From the NCBI GenBank assembly GCA_004292855.1, contig RDXN01000031.1, positions 1 to 64,000 of the forward strand: a DNA stretch of 64,000 bases, written 5' to 3'. Below are positions 19,091 to 30,565 of the stretch, in pieces. Numbering within the stretch: the first letter of the stretch is position 1; each line of letters begins with the position of its first letter. This DNA comes from Cytophagales bacterium (lineage in GTDB: Bacteria; Bacteroidota; Bacteroidia; Cytophagales; Spirosomataceae). A program made the translations under genes and the position numbers. A model generated the notes under the pieces. It made no database searches. It saw nothing but the letters and a program-made list of their open reading frames with translations, and was not told the origin of the DNA.

Positions 19091-20497
19091 ATGCACATCC
19101 GCAACCCCCGAACAGGCCAAGCCGATTATACCATCTCGCCCCCCAATCCTGCCCAAATTACCGATTTGGTGAACCAGTTTCGCCTTGCCCAAATCGACTG
19201 GCTAGCCCTTGGCGTCGAAGGTCGTGTTGAGGCTATGCAGGCCTGGAAAAACGCGCTCGAACGGTACAAGGAGGCCATCATCGACGCCCTTACCACCGAC
19301 ACCGGACGCCGGAACGAAACCCTGCTCGAACTCGACGTGGTGCTCAAATCGATTGATCGCTGGTGCGGCATCGCCCGCCAATTTTTCGCGCCCCCCAGCC
19401 AGCGAGTGTCGTCGATTCCGTTTATTAGTATCGAGCAGGACTTGGTTCCCTACGCCGTAGTGGGCGTGATCAGTCCCTGGAATTTCCCATTGCTCCTGTC
19501 GGTGATCGACACCATTCCGGCTCTGCTGGCGGGTTGCGCGGTGGTCGTCAAACCGAGCGAGGTAACACCCCGGTTCATCCGGCCCCTGCTGCAAACCATT
19601 GCTGAGGTGCCCGCGCTGGCAAAGGTCTTCACCTACCTGGAGGGGGCGGGCGAAACCGGGGCCGCGCTGGTCGAATCCTGCGATCTGATCTGCTTCACGG
19701 GCAGCACCGCCACCGGAAAACGGGTCTACAAACAGGCCTCCGAGCGGTTTGTGCCGGTTTTTCTGGAACTGGGCGGCAAAGATGCGGCCCTCGTGTTCGA
19801 GGGAGCCGACCTCGACCGGGCAAGCTCGGCCCTGCTCTGGGGATCGGTTGTGAACACGGGTCAATCGTGTTTGAGTATTGAGCGAATCTACGTGCAGGAC
19901 ACCATCTACGAAGAGTTTGTTAAACGCCTGATCGACAAAACCGAGGAAATCAAACTTGCCTATCCGACTGTTTCCGACGGGCATCTTGGCCCTGTCATTT
20001 CGGACAAACAGGTCGATATTATCAACGAGCATTTGGTCGATGCCATCGCAAAGGGAGCCATCCTGCAAACCGGCGAACCGGGCTGCGTAAAACTAGGCGG
20101 GGGCCACTATTGCCGCCCGACCGTGCTGACAAACGTGAATCACTCCATGAAGGTCATGACCGACGAAACCTTCGGCCCCGTTATGCCCATTATGCCCTTC
20201 CGCGACGAAGACGAAGCCATTGCCCTGGCCAACGGAACCATCTACGGCCTGAGCGGGGCCGTGTTTGCAGGCAACACCGAGGAGGCCATTCGCATTGCCC
20301 GCCGGATGCAGTGCGGAGCCGTGAGTATCAACGATGCGGCCCTGACCGCCATCATGCACGAAGGTGAAAAAAACTCGTTCAAACTGTCGGGCATTGGCGG
20401 CACACGCATGGGACCGTCGGCCATCAAGCGGTTCATGCGGCAAAAAGCTTACCTGATCAAAACCGCCGGTATACCCTCGCCGTGGTGGTTTGGGTAA
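19091..20497 (+). CDS. NAD(P)-dependent aldehyde dehydrogenase
   Basis: 468 aa cytosolic enzyme that oxidises aldehydes to carboxylic acids. The cofactor region VVGVISPWNFPLLL lies near 117-130, FTGSTATGKRVY near 200, the general base Glu226 in LELGGKD, and the nucleophile Cys260 in NTGQSCLSIERIYV. The closing region ETFGPVMPIMPF near 360 is also standard. The preferred substrate cannot be stated; the SLSIER context is seen in broad-range succinate-semialdehyde/aliphatic aldehyde enzymes. It runs divergently from higBA and convergently with the sulfatase (5-bp gap between stops). Confidence 0.93.
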   Translation: MHIRNPRTGQADYTISPPNPAQITDLVNQFRLAQIDWLALGVEGRVEAMQAWKNALERYKEAIIDALTTDTGRRNETLLELDVVLKSIDRWCGIARQFFAPPSQRVSSIPFISIEQDLVPYAVVGVISPWNFPLLLSVIDTIPALLAGCAVVVKPSEVTPRFIRPLLQTIAEVPALAKVFTYLEGAGETGAALVESCDLICFTGSTATGKRVYKQASERFVPVFLELGGKDAALVFEGADLDRASSALLWGSVVNTGQSCLSIERIYVQDTIYEEFVKRLIDKTEEIKLAYPTVSDGHLGPVISDKQVDIINEHLVDAIAKGAILQTGEPGCVKLGGGHYCRPTVLTNVNHSMKVMTDETFGPVMPIMPFRDEDEAIALANGTIYGLSGAVFAGNTEEAIRIARRMQCGAVSINDAALTAIMHEGEKNSFKLSGIGGTRMGPSAIKRFMRQKAYLIKTAGIPSPWWFG

Positions 20498-23356: not shown

Positions 23357-23480
23357 TTTGTCATCCCAGTTTTGTCATCCCGAGGAACGAGGGATCTACT
23401 TCTGATACTCTCAAGTTGCGTACAGTGGAAGTAGATCCCTCGTTCCTCGGGATGACAAAAGGTTTCTCGGGATGACAAAA
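23357..23480. repeat. Nested inverted repeat (GTCATCCCGAGG family)
   Basis: Perfect 33-bp arms at 23370-23402 and 23428-23460, flanked by partial outer copies (TTTTGTCATCCC at about 23357 and GGGATGACAAAA ending at 23480). The dehydrogenase frame is open through the right arm, but that is not considered coding. The GTCATCCCGAGGAACGAGGGA word is, to my knowledge, a common intergenic repeat in Bacteroidota. Confidence 0.93.
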
Positions 23481-23507
23481 TCGTTTCTCCCTTATCTGAG
23501 CAATAAC

Positions 23508-24941
23508 ATGATTACTTCACAGCCCATAGTCTCCTCACAAGCAACTGATATTCAGGCTATTTTTGACAAACAGCGTCGGTATGCTCAGCAGATGGCTCTG
23601 ACTACTGCCGCCGAACGGATTGAGCGTATTCAACGGATTTTGCGGTGGACCGAAAATCACGAAGCGGAGCTGATGCAGGCCATGCACGCCGACTTTCGGA
23701 AACCAGCCGCCGAGGTACTTTTGGGCGATTTAGGCGCGTTGATCTACGAAATCAAGCATACCTGCAAGAACCTCAAAAGCTGGATGAAGCCAAAGCGGGT
23801 GCCAACGCCCCTGCCGCTCATCGGTACTACGGGTCAGGTGTGGCACGAACCCAAAGGAAACGTCCTGATTATTTCACCCTGGAACTACCCGTTTGGCCTG
23901 GCTCTGAAGCCTCTCGTGACGGCCATTTCGGCGGGAAACGTGGCCATTATCAAACCCTCCGAAATGACGCCCAACGTGTCACGAATCATAAACATGATGA
24001 TTTCGGAGTTGTTTTCACCGGAGGAAGTGGCTGTTTTTGAGGGCGATGCTTCGGTAGCTACCCAACTGCTCGAATTGCCATTCAACCACATTTTTTTCAC
24101 GGGTAGCCCCGCCGTCGGCAAGGTTGTGATGACGGCTGCGGCCAAACATTTGGCCTCCGTTACGCTCGAACTGGGCGGCAAATCGCCCGTAATTGTGGAC
24201 GAAACGGCGAATATCCAATCAGCCGCCGAGCAGATTGCGTGGGGCAAATTCTTCAATAATGGCCAAACCTGCATTGCGCCCGACTATCTGCTCGTGCATG
24301 AGTCGGTGAAAGAGCCGTTTATGCAGGCGTTCCGGGCGTCGGTGACCAAGATGTACGGAGCCGAGGGGCCAACCGTCGCCAAATCGGTCGATTACTGTCG
24401 GATTGTGAACGGGCGGCATTTCCAACGCGTCCGGCACCTAATCGACGATGCCGTTCAGCAGGGTGCGCAAATCACACTCGGGGGCCAAACCGACGAGTCC
24501 GATAACTACATTGCTCCCACGGTGGTCGAGAACGTGACCGATACTATGGCGATTATGCAGGAAGAGATTTTTGGGCCGGTGTTGCCCGTTGTCTCCTACC
24601 ACGACCGCGACGAGGCTCTGCGAGCCATTAACAGCCGCGAAAAACCCCTGGCCCTGTATATTCAAAGCAAGTCGCGCCAAAATATCAATTACATCATGGA
24701 GCGCACCTCAGCAGGCGACACGGTGATTAACGACCTGATGTGGCAATTTGGGCATATGGAGATTCCGTTTGGCGGGGTCAACAACAGCGGCATCGGCAAA
24801 GCCAACGGCTATTTTGGTTTTCAGGAATTCTCGAACCAACGGGGCGTTATCCGGCGCGATTTCGGTACCTCGAAATTCATCTACCCGCCTTATTCAGACA
24901 AGATCAAAAAGCTGATTAGTTTTTTGGTGAAGAAGCTGTAA
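23508..24941 (+). CDS. Aldehyde dehydrogenase, ALDH3 type
   Basis: 477 aa. Start at 23508 (MITSQPIVSSQ) rather than 23472, since the earlier frame lies in an intergenic repeat. Cofactor region LIISPWNYPFGLAL near 115, FFTGSPAVGKVV near 195, general base Glu221 in LELGGKSP, nucleophile Cys255 in NNGQTCIAPDY. The words KSVDYCRIVNGRHFQR and FGGVNNSGIGKANGYFGF are typical of class 3 / fatty aldehyde dehydrogenases (AlkH, coniferyl aldehyde type), and the C-terminal hydrophobic tail (KKLISFLVKKL) may associate with membrane. Likely oxidises long-chain or aromatic aldehydes. Confidence 0.92.
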   Translation: MITSQPIVSSQATDIQAIFDKQRRYAQQMALTTAAERIERIQRILRWTENHEAELMQAMHADFRKPAAEVLLGDLGALIYEIKHTCKNLKSWMKPKRVPTPLPLIGTTGQVWHEPKGNVLIISPWNYPFGLALKPLVTAISAGNVAIIKPSEMTPNVSRIINMMISELFSPEEVAVFEGDASVATQLLELPFNHIFFTGSPAVGKVVMTAAAKHLASVTLELGGKSPVIVDETANIQSAAEQIAWGKFFNNGQTCIAPDYLLVHESVKEPFMQAFRASVTKMYGAEGPTVAKSVDYCRIVNGRHFQRVRHLIDDAVQQGAQITLGGQTDESDNYIAPTVVENVTDTMAIMQEEIFGPVLPVVSYHDRDEALRAINSREKPLALYIQSKSRQNINYIMERTSAGDTVINDLMWQFGHMEIPFGGVNNSGIGKANGYFGFQEFSNQRGVIRRDFGTSKFIYPPYSDKIKKLISFLVKKL

Positions 24942-25132: not shown

Positions 25133-25705
25133 TCAAAACTTGTACCCCAAACCTACTCCTGCCACTGAACTTTGACCAGCCCGCCCCAGATTGGCTAAGG
25201 AGAAGCGGGCATTTACAGCCAACTGCCTGAAGAGCGAAAACTCAAGCTCCCCTGTGAAATGGTGACCCACGTTAAGTTCATCAATTGTTTCGATGAATAC
25301 CAAAGGGGGCGCACTTGGATTGAATCCCCAAATGACACTGGTAACATTTTGATCCCGACGATGCCATAAGGAAGGGCCTCCACCAATTCTTGCAGCAAAC
25401 AAAGGGCTTTTTATCAAATCGAAAAATATAGTCAGGTCGAAAGTGGTTCGCTCACGGGGGCGTAATATTCGATCTATGTAGTCATTTCTATTCTCTACCT
25501 TCATGTACCCTACCGTACTCGCAAGCACAATCCGGTCATTGGCAACGTGACGGGCATAGCGCACGGTTGGCCGGAGGCCAAGGTCATCAGGGGCATCGAG
25601 ACTCATGTAGTCGACACCAAACTGAATTGAGTTTTTGAGTCGAACAGTCTGTGCCAAAGAGGCATTGGTGAATATCAGAAGAGCAAAGAGTAGATAGATT
25701 TTCAT
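25133..25705 (-). CDS. Small outer-membrane beta-barrel protein, unknown role
   Basis: 190 aa. A signal peptide (MKIYLLFALLIFTNASLAQ) is followed by alternating strands and ends GQSSVAGVGLGYKF, the usual terminal aromatic strand of a small outer-membrane barrel. Strand-like phrases include SIQFGVDYMSL and HHFTGELEFSLFRQLAVNARF. No family name can be given. It is transcribed divergently from the large metallopeptidase/barrel gene across a 101-bp gap, with a well-spaced TTG / TATATTGG promoter on its own strand. Confidence 0.75.
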   Translation of the reverse strand: MKIYLLFALLIFTNASLAQTVRLKNSIQFGVDYMSLDAPDDLGLRPTVRYARHVANDRIVLASTVGYMKVENRNDYIDRILRPRERTTFDLTIFFDLIKSPLFAARIGGGPSLWHRRDQNVTSVIWGFNPSAPPLVFIETIDELNVGHHFTGELEFSLFRQLAVNARFSLANLGRAGQSSVAGVGLGYKF

Positions 25706-25806: not shown

Positions 25807-28746
25807 ATGACCTCCAGAACCCGCTTTTTGTCTTTATTGGCCTTGTTACCCCTGTTGTCGGTGTCGGCCCAAACATTACCTGTTCTCGATCAAAATCCGG
25901 CTAATCTGCGCTGGTATCGCATCCAAACACCCAACTTTTCGGTCATCTATCCCGAAGGCTTCGGAACGCAGGCCCAACGCACAGCCCGCACCCTCGAAGG
26001 CCTCTATGAACCCGTGAGCGCGACGTTGGGTCGAAAGCCCCGCCGGGTGCCGATCCTGTTGCAAAACCAGACAAGCATCAGTAACGGATTTGTGACGCTC
26101 ACACCCCGGCGGTCGGAGTTTTTTACCACGCCCCCACAAGACCCGTTCCTGCTCGGCACCTCCGACTGGCTCAACCTGCTGGCCGTTCACGAGTATCGGC
26201 ACGTGGTGCAGTTCGAGAAGGCGCAGCAGGGCTTTGGTAAGGTGCTGTTTAAGTTGTTTGGTTATAATGCGCTTGCCCTAGCCACCATCGGGGTTCCCGA
26301 CTGGTTTTCGGAGGGCGACGCCGTGGGCGTAGAAACCGCACTGGGCCAAAGCGGGCGCGGACGGTTTCCGCATTTCGACATGGAGTACCGGGCTAACCTG
26401 CTGGCGGGCAAGCGATTCAGTTATAACAAGTCGGTGGGGGGATCGTTTCGCGACAACGTGCCGGACCACTACAAACTCGGCTATCTGATGACTACCAATC
26501 TCCGGCGCGAGAACGGGGCCGATGGCTGGAGTCGTGTCCTCAACAGTTACTACAACCGCTTCCCCCTACCATTTTCCTTCTCCGAAAGTGTGAAAACTGT
26601 GACCGGCAAACGAGTCGACTCGCTTTACATACGCACCGTCGACGATGTGACCGAGACCTGGGCTAAACAGCGCGAGGGTCTCAAATTCACCCCCGCGACG
26701 GCCTTAGCCGTGCAGCCCGAAAAGGGCGTGTTTACCAATTATCAGTACCCACAGTACGTCTCGGACAGCACGGTGTTGGCGGTGAAAAGCGGCCTGGGCG
26801 ACATTAGCCAACTGGTAATGCTCCGGCGCAACGGCACCGAAAAAAAGGTGTTCGTGCAGGGGCTTTTCAACGATGCCGACATGCTTTCGGTGAATGCCGG
26901 GCGGGCCGTTTGGGTTGAGTTCCGCTCGCACCCGCGCTGGACACAAAAAATCTGGTCCGAAATCCGCTCCCTCGACCTGACTACGGGCAGGCAGACGCGC
27001 ATGACCAACCAAACGCGTTACAATGCCGTCGCTCTCTCGCCCGATGGATTCAGTTTGGCAGTTGTTGAGCATTTAGAAAACTACAAGACCCGGCTGGTAA
27101 TACTCGACGCCGAAACGGGCAAGGTGAAACAAACACTCCCCAACCCGTTCAACGATTTTTACCTGCATCCGCGCTGGTCCGACGACAGTAAGAGCATCGT
27201 GGCCGTGGCCCTGAACGATGGCAAAAAGACCCTTCAGCGCATCGACGCCACCACTGGTCAACGAACCGATTTGCTGCCCGCCCAAAACCGCAACATCAGC
27301 CACCCGCAACCCTGGGGCAGTTACGTGCTGTATAATTCGCCCCAGTCGGGCATCGACAACGTGTATGCCGTCGATACACGCAATGGACGCACGTTTCAGG
27401 TGACCTCGCGCTCACTGGGAGCCTTCCACGCGGCCATTTCGGCGAATGGCAAAACACTGGCTTACCACGACTTTTCGGCAGACGGTCACCGCGTCGTGGA
27501 AACCCCGCTCGACCCGAGTACCTGGACCCCGTCTATCGACGTGCCCGACCGCTCGGTGCGGTATTTTGGGCCATTGATCCAACAGGAACCCGGCCTGGCG
27601 CAGGCGCGTCGTGCCCTCGCCGACTCCACCGCCCCGCCGACTCAACAGACCACCCCGACGCCCTACGATACCACCCGTTACCGCCGACTGGCCCACGCCC
27701 TGAACATCTACGGCTGGGGGCCGCTGTTCTCATCGTCGGGGCAGGAACTGACCCTCAGCATCGACTCGCAGGATTTGCTCGGCACCAGTCAAGTTTCGGT
27801 GGGCTACACCTATAATCAAGCCGAGAAAGTGGGCAACCTGTTCGCCAATTTGAGTTATCAGGGGCTTTTCCCCATTTTTGATCTGAGTCTGGAGCGGGGC
27901 AACCGCAACACATCTGTCTATTTAGATAGACGGCTTCCGCTCGATGCAGACAGTTTGCGCTCAGACCGTTGGCAGTATAATTCGCTGTCGGCGGGGGTTC
28001 GACTGCCGTTCCGATTCACGCAGTCGAAATACAACCAGAATCTAACGCTCTCGGCCTATTACAATCTGATTCGGGTAACGGGTTACGATTTGCCCTTTTC
28101 GCCCATCAATGAGGTCGGTTCAGCGGGGATACTCAACGCCATGACCTACGGGTTTACGTACTCGCACCTACTCAAGCAAAATAAGCGTGATGTTAACCCG
28201 CCCTGGGGCCAAATCCTGACGTTCACCTGGAAAACAACGCCCTTCGGTGGCGCGTTGCGGGGCGAACAACTGAGCTTGCAGACAAATCTGTTTTTTCCGG
28301 GATTCATGAAACATCATTCCCTTCGGCTACGGGGAGGCTACCAGCAACAGTTTCAGGATACCTACCGGTTTTCGCCCGCCACATTCTACCCACGGGGCCA
28401 ATTATACACGAGCTTCGACAAGCTCACCGTGGGCGGAGCCGAATACCGCCTGCCCATCGCCGACATGCATTTGGACCTGGGACGCGTGGCCTACGTTCAA
28501 CGAATCAAGGGCGGGGTATTTTTTGATGCAGCACAGGGCCAACTCGAAGTGCCGCAGATCGTGAACAACCGGTTTGTGGGGTTCCAGACCGAACGGCGCA
28601 ATCTAGCCAGTGTTGGGGCCGATTTGTCGTTCGTTTTCAACGTGTTGCGGCTCCGACTGCCGTTTGAAGTGGGCGCGCGCTTTGTTTATTCGCTCAACAC
28701 GAACAAGTACGAAATTCAGCCCCTTGTCCTGGATATTGGCTTTTAA
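25807..28746 (+). CDS. Predicted outer-membrane metallopeptidase: gluzincin + PD40 propeller + beta-barrel
   Basis: 979 aa with a signal peptide (to about residue 21, VSAQ). The segment WYRIQTPNFSVIYPEG opens a peptidase-MA-like fold; HEYRH (His128, Glu129, His132) is an HExxH zinc site, and VPDWFSEGDAVGVE supplies Glu169 as third ligand in the usual WxxEG context. Residues about 300-560 hold TolB/PD40-type blades (MTNQTRYNAVALSPDGFSL, HPRWSDDSKSIVAVAL). From about 620 the sequence becomes an Omp85-like beta-barrel (PPWGQILTFTWKTTPFGG, LRLRGGYQQQF) and ends QPLVLDIGF. This suggests a protease held at the cell surface or periplasmic face by its own barrel. It stands divergent from a small barrel gene. 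Catalytic residues are intact by eye. Confidence 0.8.
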   Translation: MTSRTRFLSLLALLPLLSVSAQTLPVLDQNPANLRWYRIQTPNFSVIYPEGFGTQAQRTARTLEGLYEPVSATLGRKPRRVPILLQNQTSISNGFVTLTPRRSEFFTTPPQDPFLLGTSDWLNLLAVHEYRHVVQFEKAQQGFGKVLFKLFGYNALALATIGVPDWFSEGDAVGVETALGQSGRGRFPHFDMEYRANLLAGKRFSYNKSVGGSFRDNVPDHYKLGYLMTTNLRRENGADGWSRVLNSYYNRFPLPFSFSESVKTVTGKRVDSLYIRTVDDVTETWAKQREGLKFTPATALAVQPEKGVFTNYQYPQYVSDSTVLAVKSGLGDISQLVMLRRNGTEKKVFVQGLFNDADMLSVNAGRAVWVEFRSHPRWTQKIWSEIRSLDLTTGRQTRMTNQTRYNAVALSPDGFSLAVVEHLENYKTRLVILDAETGKVKQTLPNPFNDFYLHPRWSDDSKSIVAVALNDGKKTLQRIDATTGQRTDLLPAQNRNISHPQPWGSYVLYNSPQSGIDNVYAVDTRNGRTFQVTSRSLGAFHAAISANGKTLAYHDFSADGHRVVETPLDPSTWTPSIDVPDRSVRYFGPLIQQEPGLAQARRALADSTAPPTQQTTPTPYDTTRYRRLAHALNIYGWGPLFSSSGQELTLSIDSQDLLGTSQVSVGYTYNQAEKVGNLFANLSYQGLFPIFDLSLERGNRNTSVYLDRRLPLDADSLRSDRWQYNSLSAGVRLPFRFTQSKYNQNLTLSAYYNLIRVTGYDLPFSPINEVGSAGILNAMTYGFTYSHLLKQNKRDVNPPWGQILTFTWKTTPFGGALRGEQLSLQTNLFFPGFMKHHSLRLRGGYQQQFQDTYRFSPATFYPRGQLYTSFDKLTVGGAEYRLPIADMHLDLGRVAYVQRIKGGVFFDAAQGQLEVPQIVNNRFVGFQTERRNLASVGADLSFVFNVLRLRLPFEVGARFVYSLNTNKYEIQPLVLDIGF

Positions 28747-28747
28747 C

Positions 28748-30565
28748 CTATTGCTTCACGACCCGCAAAACGGTCTTTTGTCCGTCAACTATCAACTCGG
28801 CAAAATACACGCCGGGAGCAGCCCCACGAGCAGCCCAAACCGACCGATGCTCCCCCGCCAACTGCCCTGCGTTGACCAACCGCGTCACTTCGCGCCCATT
28901 CAGATCAGTGATGCGGAGCGACACCTCCGCCGGGCGCGTGAGGGTGTAACGGAGTTCGGTTTCGCCTGAAAACGGGTTGGGCGCGTTGACAAACTGGGTC
29001 GCCAAAACAGGTTCCTGTGCCGTAACTAATTGGCTTTGAACGGTGTTCGACGGGTTGCTCTCGTTGTGGAGCCGGTCGAGCGTTGTCACCACGTAGGTGT
29101 AGGTCACGCCCGGCTTTAGGTCATTATCAACAAATTGCGTGGTTGCATCGGGCGTGATGGCCCGGATGTTGGCGGCTGTGTTCCGGTCGCCAGCGGTGTT
29201 ACCCTCGAACCGGTACACGACAAACTGCCAAATCGGTGGCGGAAAATTTGGTGCGACAGAGCCGGTCAACACCTTCCAGCGCAGATCGACCGTATTGTTG
29301 GTGACAGTGGCTGTCAGATCGGTAGGTTGGGGCGGGTTAGGGGCCGCCTTCCAGGGCATCGCGGGGCGCAGGGCGGGGCGGGCGTAGAAGTTGGTTCGTA
29401 GCGAGTCGCGCAGGCCGAGGGGGTTTCGGTTTAGTGAGGTGGTGTTGTAGAAGATACTCCCCTGAATGCCGGGAGTTTGACGATTCAGGCGGAGTTGAGT
29501 AGGCATCTGATTCGGTTGCTGCCAACCCGCCGGTTCGCCCGAAGCCCCCACTCGATAGGCCGCCTGACCGATGTACAGGTGCCGCCCATTGGCCGACTGC
29601 ATCACAGCGTTCCACCACGGCACCAAAACCCCGTAATCAGCGGCTGCGTTGCCAATATGCCAGTAGAGTTGGGGGGCAATATAATCGAGCCAACCCGCCT
29701 GAATCCACGTCCGGGAATCGGCAAAAATTTCGTTATACCCCTGCAAACCGCTCGTGGCCGAGCCGTTGGGTTGGGCCGTGGTGCGGTTCTGCCAGATACC
29801 AAACGGCGAAATACCAAACTTGACCCAGGGTTTCACGGCCCGGATGCTGTCGGAGACCTGTTTAACCAGTAAATTCACGTTATCGCGACGCCAGTCGGCC
29901 CGGTTGGTCAGGCCCCGGTTGTGCCGCACAAATGTCGAGTCGTCGTTAAACGATTGGCCCGTCACGGGGTAGGGATAAAAATAATCATCAAAATGGACCC
30001 CGTCGATGTCGTATCGGCGCACTACGTCCATAATCACGCTCGTCACGTACTGCCGAACGTCGGGCAGGCCGGGGTTCAGAATCCGCAGGTTCGCTTGTGC
30101 CAGGAGCCATTCGGGTTTGCGCCGGACTACGTGCGTGGGGTCAAGATTGGCGGTGGTGATGTTGGTAACGGCGCGGTAGGGGTTGAACCAAGCATGAAAT
30201 TCCAGTCCCCGTTTGCGGCATTCAGCGATCATAAACGCCAGCGGGTCGTAACCGGGCGATTGGCCCTGTTTGCCCGTGAGCACCTCGGCCCAGGGTTCGA
30301 GCGTGCTGGGGTAGAGCGCGTCGCATACGCTACGTACCTGCACCACCACGGCGTTCATACCGGCTTGCTGATGGCTGTTCAGAATAGCAACCAGTTCGGC
30401 CTGTTGTTGGGCAGCCGTTAGGGTTTTGCTGCTTGGCCAGTCAATATTGCCCACCGTAGCGACCCAGGCCCCGCGAAACTCGCGTTTGGGCTGAGCGTGG
30501 GCGGGATCCAGGCAAAGAATGAATAGGAGTAGTACGGTACTTTGTAAGAATAGAAAGTGTTTCAT
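28748..30565 (-). CDS. GHL10-type glycoside hydrolase (DUF187) with FnIII and T9SS sorting domain
   Basis: 605 aa exported enzyme. A signal peptide (to about residue 24, AHAQ) is followed by REFRGAWVATVGNIDWPS, the hallmark start of glycosyl-hydrolase-like family 10. Barrel strands include GMNAVVVQVR, GLEFHAWFNPYR, DIDGVHFDDYFYPYP and VKFGISPFGIW. A fibronectin-type III domain (about 410-510: PTDLTATVTNNTVDLRW) and a type A T9SS C-terminal domain (NAPNPFSGETELRYTL... to VLRVVKQ) complete it, so export is through T9SS with surface attachment or release. Family members act on peptidoglycan or glucan-like substrates; the target here is unknown. Confidence 0.9.
   Translation of the reverse strand: MKHFLFLQSTVLLLFILCLDPAHAQPKREFRGAWVATVGNIDWPSSKTLTAAQQQAELVAILNSHQQAGMNAVVVQVRSVCDALYPSTLEPWAEVLTGKQGQSPGYDPLAFMIAECRKRGLEFHAWFNPYRAVTNITTANLDPTHVVRRKPEWLLAQANLRILNPGLPDVRQYVTSVIMDVVRRYDIDGVHFDDYFYPYPVTGQSFNDDSTFVRHNRGLTNRADWRRDNVNLLVKQVSDSIRAVKPWVKFGISPFGIWQNRTTAQPNGSATSGLQGYNEIFADSRTWIQAGWLDYIAPQLYWHIGNAAADYGVLVPWWNAVMQSANGRHLYIGQAAYRVGASGEPAGWQQPNQMPTQLRLNRQTPGIQGSIFYNTTSLNRNPLGLRDSLRTNFYARPALRPAMPWKAAPNPPQPTDLTATVTNNTVDLRWKVLTGSVAPNFPPPIWQFVVYRFEGNTAGDRNTAANIRAITPDATTQFVDNDLKPGVTYTYVVTTLDRLHNESNPSNTVQSQLVTAQEPVLATQFVNAPNPFSGETELRYTLTRPAEVSLRITDLNGREVTRLVNAGQLAGEHRSVWAARGAAPGVYFAELIVDGQKTVLRVVKQ

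Follow-up and report, generated by a model that had tools for sequence, protein, structure and literature searches.

Among the described Omp85 proteins that carry further domains, the closest to the gene considered here are the WD40-Omp85 proteins of Heinz and Lithgow (2014), which were described as reminiscent of a fusion of BamA and BamB (PMC4104836; all papers are cited here from the sections of them that were available). The same work defines a separate ‘Metallo’ subfamily of Omp85-metalloproteases by PF00149, and a metalloprotease-Omp85 is also mentioned in the paper on PlpD (PMC11116518). Enzyme-Omp85 fusions are poorly characterised, and little is known of outer-membrane proteolytic quality control in Bacteroidota. 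PF00149 itself we take to be a metallophosphatase family and not one of proteases. The gene considered here lies at positions 25807–28746 of a 64,000-nucleotide window (the whole stretch of DNA that was analysed, contig RDXN01000031.1 of a Cytophagales bacterium, family Spirosomataceae), on the forward strand, as do all of its features given below. Its open reading frame encodes a protein of 979 amino acids in which a putative zinc peptidase domain with an invariant site is followed by a TolB-like propeller and a predicted Omp85-type barrel. We give slightly better than an even chance to the reading that this protein is an outer-membrane-anchored zinc endopeptidase, with its catalytic domain on the periplasmic side, acting on exported or outer-membrane proteins.

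The peptidase-type domain and its conserved site

Judged from sequence, the three-part fusion is not peculiar to the source organism; it is found in a large family across the phylum. Matches to the window protein at E ≤ 0.001 are present in 165 of 296 genomes of the phylum, and strong, nearly full-length matches in 30 of the 296, the window genome included (E ≤ 3.8e-67; L001–L030); these tallies scored the first two to three candidates per genome. A scan of named genomes added 19 loci from Rudanella, Spirosoma, Larkinella, Arsenicibacter and Hymenobacter, the nearest relative found being that of Rudanella paleaurantiibacter (75–76% identity), while no relative was found on the viral contigs scanned. 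Conservation was examined in 48 aligned window-type proteins, the window protein among them and the cut-short L048 omitted; in 20 more distant relatives; and in a further group of 49 aligned members, made up of 22 from the window’s class (Bb) and 27 from elsewhere in the phylum (Bo). The 20 distant relatives and 19 extra loci of the last group were chosen from match lists by rank and variety, their sites uninspected.

The predicted gluzincin-type (peptidase MA) N-domain, residues 23–300 (25873–26706), holds an HExxH motif (H128, E129 and H132 in HEYRH, residues 128–132; 26188–26202), E169 (26311–26313) in a PxWxxEGxA context that reads PDWFSEGDA in the window protein, and Y222 (26470–26472). 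These five residues are kept in 48/48 window-type proteins, 20/20 distant relatives and 27/27 Bo proteins (together 95/95). Positions identical in all 68 window-type and distant proteins are Q22, N93, W121, H128, E129 and H132, together with P164, E169, G170, A172, Y222 and G225, which is more than chance would give beside a mean pairwise N-domain identity of 43% among the 48; R184 is identical in 68/68 in one alignment but, in another, in 12/20 distant relatives, and it is absent from the Bo and Bb group, so it is not relied on. The HExxH motif with its downstream Glu follows the gluzincin pattern, in which E169 would be the third zinc ligand, and the spacing suggests that Y222 is the known transition-state tyrosine of gluzincins. 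The original prediction for this gene, made from the sequence, had placed H128, E129, H132 and E169 in the frame at these coordinates, and they are present there and kept in homologues of the window’s branch; the three-part layout of peptidase-type domain, propeller and barrel that it proposed has been upheld by sequence and predicted structure.

The case for a catalytic role of the five residues rests mainly on the contrast between these three sets of proteins and Bb. The source genome encodes a Bb sister with the same layout as the window protein, a frame of 1113 codons (L079:1780–5118; G000:C26:28279–31617), which came to light through a search of that genome for Omp85 domains. In this sister HDVSM replaces HExxH and PDWFMPG replaces PxWxxEG. 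Its BLASTP match to the window protein is weak (5e-4), and the N-domain profiles of the window-type group and Bb match nearly end to end (3e-8). A search of the same genome with the window protein missed the sister, so that tallies made with a single protein are lower bounds. Of 198 genomes, 135 contain a match to the sister at E ≤ 0.001, with members of other branches counted in; this tally, like those of PorU and F8 below, scored the first two to three candidates per genome. The motif is lost in 22/22 Bb proteins and kept in 27/27 Bo proteins, and in a tree of 117 proteins the 22 Bb members form one branch (support 1.0) that is sister to the 27 of Bo (support 0.80); a single loss of the catalytic site in Bb would be the simplest reading. 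None of the five residues is kept in 16 of the 22 and one is kept in the other 6 (Y222 in 0/22). Because they are lost in Bb while P164, W166, G170 and G225 stay in 22/22, the five residues look functional and not structural. One dead-site sister (L086 in G111) has a single in-frame TAA within its match. As to the conservation of the site among homologues to which the original prediction pointed, the window’s branch keeps HExxH and Glu, and one branch of the family, in all 22 proteins sampled, has lost them.

Pfam found no peptidase match in the window protein, PF13485 (Peptidase_MA_2) included, and the two weak PF13485 matches in its own genome are to other genes. The same family matches 8 of the 20 distant relatives at E ≤ 0.01, and of three matching distant members compared with the cut-off of 32.4 one lies over it (33.4) and two just under (31.1 and 32.1). 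Profiles of the N-domain match between branches (window-type with distant relatives 1.7e-39, window-type with Bo 4e-11, Bb with Bo 1.1e-56). Folded alone, the N-domain gave a low-quality model (mean predicted local distance difference test, pLDDT, 54.8). The 50 VIA rows shown for this model are chains of M30, M9 and M1 type (Z 8.5–11.8, root-mean-square deviation 3.9–7.2 Å), headed by the M30 peptidase lugdulysin (7bb8, Z 11.8) and followed by M9 collagenases and M1 aminopeptidases, the nature of the rows being judged from titles and chain lengths; two TFIID chains among them are presumably M1-like TAF2. Foldseek’s 50 rows are likewise M1, M9 and similar zinc peptidases, with one TFIID chain. 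Such rows are support for a gluzincin fold in the modelled domain, not proof of it. A conserved zinc site might instead serve a non-peptidase hydrolase or a metal-sensing role; we regard this as very improbable, since gluzincins are marked by the pattern HExxH...EG...Y and, but for the two TFIID chains, all 50 VIA rows are peptidases.

Propeller, barrel and the side of the membrane

The N-domain is preceded by a signal peptide, judged by eye to comprise residues 1–21 (25807–25869). The residue after it, Q22, which is identical in 68/68 aligned proteins, fits the Q-rule for signal peptidase I substrates in Bacteroidetes (PMC5837995). The TolB-like β-propeller occupies residues 310–567 (26734–27507). 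In the AlphaFold2 model of the whole protein, residues 301–572 match E. coli TolB over 242 residues at 2.9 Å with Z 23.8 (Z 23.6 for the crystal structure 1crz), and a TolB chain (7mx5) is matched by sequence at 1.3e-7 and with a profile at 2.4e-20. Searches of the PDB by sequence and by profile with the window protein returned propeller-type chains only, and no metallopeptidase or barrel. By Pfam the protein has PD40 below cut-off only, and against the NCBIfam TolB model TIGR02800 it scores 45.2 bits, short of the cut-off of 343. A Pro/Thr-rich linker (residues 576–635, 27532–27711), mostly of low confidence in the model, joins propeller and barrel; no POTRA domain was recognised there or elsewhere in the protein, no dedicated POTRA search having been made.

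The C-terminal part, residues 638–977 (27718–28737), is predicted by the model to be a barrel of 16 strands, in line with the barrel that the original prediction had proposed there. This modelled barrel matches BamA of D. radiodurans (Z 21.8, 302 residues, 3.5 Å), E. coli BamA entries (Z 19.0–20.9) and E. coli TamA (Z 21.0). Pfam’s Omp85 family (PF01103) has no match in the window protein at E ≤ 1 nor in 34 window-type members at 0.01, and it matches 1 of the 20 distant relatives. Window-type barrels taken together with the distant sequences match the Omp85 profile at 0.0014 over 45 columns, and an indirect chain of profiles runs from the window-type group to the distant relatives (1.7e-20), from these to Omp85 (2.1e-5, 69 columns), and from the Bo and Bb group to Omp85 (1.2e-17, 149 columns; negative control 0.73), all of these being pairwise E-values and so optimistic. 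Membership of the Omp85 superfamily would rest on predicted structure and these intermediate relatives.

The place of the Omp85 loop-6 motif, (V/I)RG(F/Y), falls between model strands 11 and 12, where the window protein has PRGQ (P862-R863-G864 at 28390–28398). The Arg of this motif is found in 38/48 window-type proteins, 11/20 distant relatives and 49/49 of Bo and Bb, and the Gly in 45/48, 14/20 and 47/49 respectively. These counts bear on the idea that the protein is chiefly a BamA-like insertase or assembly barrel, its N-domain and propeller serving mainly for docking and catalysis being secondary. An assembly role was proposed for WD40-Omp85 by Heinz et al. (PMC4104836), and the persistence of the whole layout with a dead site in 22/22 sampled Bb proteins indicates that the scaffold is useful without catalysis. 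However, the site is never lost in any examined protein of the window’s or the other active-type branches, and the looser loop-6 Arg of the window-type and distant proteins, as compared with Bo and Bb, argues against insertase function in the window-type group; we consider a dominant non-proteolytic role rather unlikely, if the most credible of the alternatives.

The gene is, by sequence, under purifying selection across N-domain, propeller and barrel. With R. paleaurantiibacter as the reference, the ratio of non-synonymous to synonymous substitution rates (dN/dS) comes to 0.10, 0.10 and 0.11 for the three regions, values that are rough at a dS of 1.3–1.9, and 0.12 overall, which is also rough at a near-saturated dS of 1.5. 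Mean pairwise identity within the 48 window-type proteins is 43% in the N-domain, 32% in the propeller, 31% in the barrel and 21%, the lowest, in the linker. The copy of Spirosoma telluris that was left out of the alignment (L048:5983–7806) has a frame shortened to 610 amino acids, through assembly error or decay.

Omp85 barrels have both their N- and C-termini in the periplasm. Together with the finding that the enzyme domain of PlpD is located only in the periplasm (PMC11116518), this favours the periplasmic side for the peptidase-type domain. The original prediction had allowed for either the cell surface or the periplasm, and of these two the periplasm is favoured by Omp85 topology and the published location of PlpD, the surface less so. 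Export of the peptidase domain through the barrel to the surface, as once proposed for PlpD under the type Vd scheme, is in keeping with the older model of patatin-Omp85 proteins (PMC4104836), but the PlpD domain is reported to stay in the periplasm (PMC11116518) and more than 500 residues of peptidase and propeller would need to be unfolded to pass the barrel; we consider a surface protease improbable.

For the favoured reading, that of a periplasm-facing endopeptidase, we infer zinc binding, cleavage, location, clients and the use of the propeller as follows. The protein would be exported by Sec, its signal peptide removed, and its C-terminal Omp85-type barrel inserted in the outer membrane, with the linker keeping propeller and peptidase domain just under the barrel. 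H128, H132 and E169 would act as zinc ligands, E129 as the base, and Y222 would assist the transition state. Because the propeller adjoins the zinc site, it may dock a partner or feed a client chain to that site. Its likely clients would be proteins that are exported or reside in the outer membrane, on which it would act in quality control or maturation, much as in E. coli, where BepA is a zinc protease that polices outer-membrane proteins at the β-barrel assembly machinery (BAM) (PMC13067283).

Several observations weigh against this reading. The full-length model, built from 19 sequences, is of moderate confidence (mean pLDDT 68.8, predicted template modelling score 0.56), and low-confidence models are a weak point of the case. 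For the N-domain model Foldseek returned nothing at E ≤ 0.001 (best 2.8e-3), and because of this and the poor quality of that model (pLDDT 54.8) the geometry of the zinc site is not visible. The profile control of N-domain against propeller region was not clean (5e-4 over 37 columns, where the cuts overlap). In direct comparison with 16 Omp85 barrels from the window’s order, the window-type barrel profile gave E-values of 0.24 and 0.12, which are not significant (negative control 0.58). Its patchy presence (30/296 genomes) sets the window-type gene apart from core housekeeping factors, and at most 5 of 20 diverse window-type loci share any one neighbour, so that there is no genetic hint of clients.

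Genomic context and type IX secretion

The tree of 117 proteins also sets apart eight proteins of 1030–1125 amino acids (F8, support 0.999), paralogues with a genetic link to the type IX secretion system (T9SS). All eight are of active type, and the HExxH..EG..Y motif is present in 30/30 further loci (the best 30 of 77 genomes). With PorU called by NF033707 over cut-off and F8-like proteins at E ≤ 2.4e-94, F8-like genes were found in 77 of 198 genomes, PorU in 136 and both in 72, a tally that leaves out the weak match of the source genome to the window gene. In 63 of the 72 genomes with both, F8 is encoded on the strand of porU, 4.1–6.0 kb downstream of it; in the other nine the two are unlinked, on other contigs in seven and far away in two. 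Five genomes have F8 without PorU over cut-off, and 64 have PorU without F8. Twenty F8 stretches were chosen for closer study (12 with F8 linked to porU, 4 with it unlinked and 4 lacking PorU over cut-off), in which genes carry NCBIfam names established at two loci and extended to the others by clustering. Within the 12 linked stretches an inactive M6-like protein (NF052323, here M6i) occurs in 12/12, in 11 of them immediately ahead of F8, and PorV occurs in 11/12, the gene order being porU-porV-M6i-F8 (for example L226:2961–15533). M6i is found in 0/4 stretches in which F8 is not linked to porU. The porV-M6i-F8 segment is kept in 4/4 stretches without PorU over cut-off (L242–L245). An unnamed gene of about 250–550 amino acids follows F8 in 16 of the 20 stretches, directly in 15, and the example at L226:14589–15533 (315 amino acids) has no NCBIfam match. 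The position of F8 inside a T9SS porU-porV operon makes it a possible missing T9SS factor, and one that is directly testable.

The dead-site branch has a similar association: within the window’s order, 8 of 10 genomes have Bb at 2.5–3.6 kb from porU (for example L178–L182, with the PorU and PorV names confirmed for L178 and L182), the two exceptions being of the window’s own family. In the nine genomes of the class outside that order that have PorU over cut-off, Bb is near porU in none. By analogy with F8, the window protein might be a T9SS accessory that processes or matures the machinery or its cargo in the periplasm, an idea to which the linkage of F8 to porU, with PorV and M6i lying in between in the stretches examined, and the proximity of Bb to porU both lend weight. 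The distribution of the window-type gene itself speaks against it. PorU over cut-off is present in 16 of the 24 sampled genomes with this gene and missing from the other eight (three of which have weaker matches), and in 0/16 of the former is the gene near porU (13 on another contig, three at least 90.8 kb apart). A T9SS accessory role is accordingly a doubtful prospect for the window protein, on a par with surface export. Identity as a T9SS component proper was rejected, 8/24 genomes lacking PorU over cut-off and the 16 with PorU showing no linkage.

The surroundings of the window gene vary. A conserved operon for the window type was considered and rejected, since even the commonest neighbour families are shared by at most 9/20 loci (the 19 named ones and the window), and these are close relatives. 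The adjacent gene at 25133–25705 (reverse strand), a putative small barrel according to the original prediction, has no Pfam or NCBIfam match and does not recur beside the 19 named relatives. On the other side, 28748–30565 (reverse strand) encodes a protein resembling GHL10 glycosyl hydrolases that bears a T9SS sorting tail (35.9 bits against 23). Two related genes named from sequence as aldehyde-dehydrogenase-like stand close together at 19091–20497 and 23472–24941, and 8 of the 19 named relatives also have one such gene upstream of their window-type gene.

Comparison with known systems

Each part of the window protein has described counterparts. Gluzincins such as lugdulysin (M30, 7bb8), M9 collagenases and M1 aminopeptidases resemble the N-domain in the fold rows and in the HExxH motif, Glu and Tyr, but their chains have only 8–14% identity to it over the match, and we know of none of these types that carries a propeller and a barrel. 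TolB shares the propeller fold and is without a peptidase domain or barrel, both of which are features of the window protein. BepA is a soluble protein with a TPR domain. As a proposed analogy it offers a zinc protease that acts on outer-membrane proteins at BAM, and it differs in belonging to the M48 family and in having neither barrel nor propeller (PMC13067283). PlpD, a much-studied fusion of an enzyme with Omp85, resembles the window protein in combining an N-terminal enzyme domain, which is periplasmic, with a C-terminal Omp85 barrel, and is unlike it in being a patatin-like phospholipase with one POTRA domain, homodimeric and without a propeller (PMC11116518). The protein was also considered as a subunit, BamM or another, of the newly found BAM complexes of Bacteroidota, and this was rejected: BamM is a surface lipoprotein of peptidyl-prolyl isomerase (PPI) fold (PMC12611786), and the word ‘peptidase’ occurs nowhere in the available sections of a second paper on these subunits (PMC12578637).

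In the WD40-Omp85 proteins a TolB-like propeller at the N-terminus precedes an Omp85 barrel, with no POTRA domain named in the sections available, and by predicted fold the same arrangement is present in the window protein; the word ‘peptidase’ occurs 0 times in the main text of their description, as far as it was accessible (PMC4104836). No paper describing the three-part fusion, or the link of F8 to the porU-porV operon, was found in a search made largely in open literature, and a word search of PMC3482391 likewise gave nothing. With defined catalytic-type residues and, encoded in the same genome, a sister whose naturally dead site allows comparison, the protein is a testable candidate. By its predicted fold the family resembles WD40-Omp85 and would be known in outline under that name; three features are new as far as the literature was searched, namely the conservation of the peptidase site, the loss of this site throughout the Bb branch and the place of F8 in the porU-porV operon.

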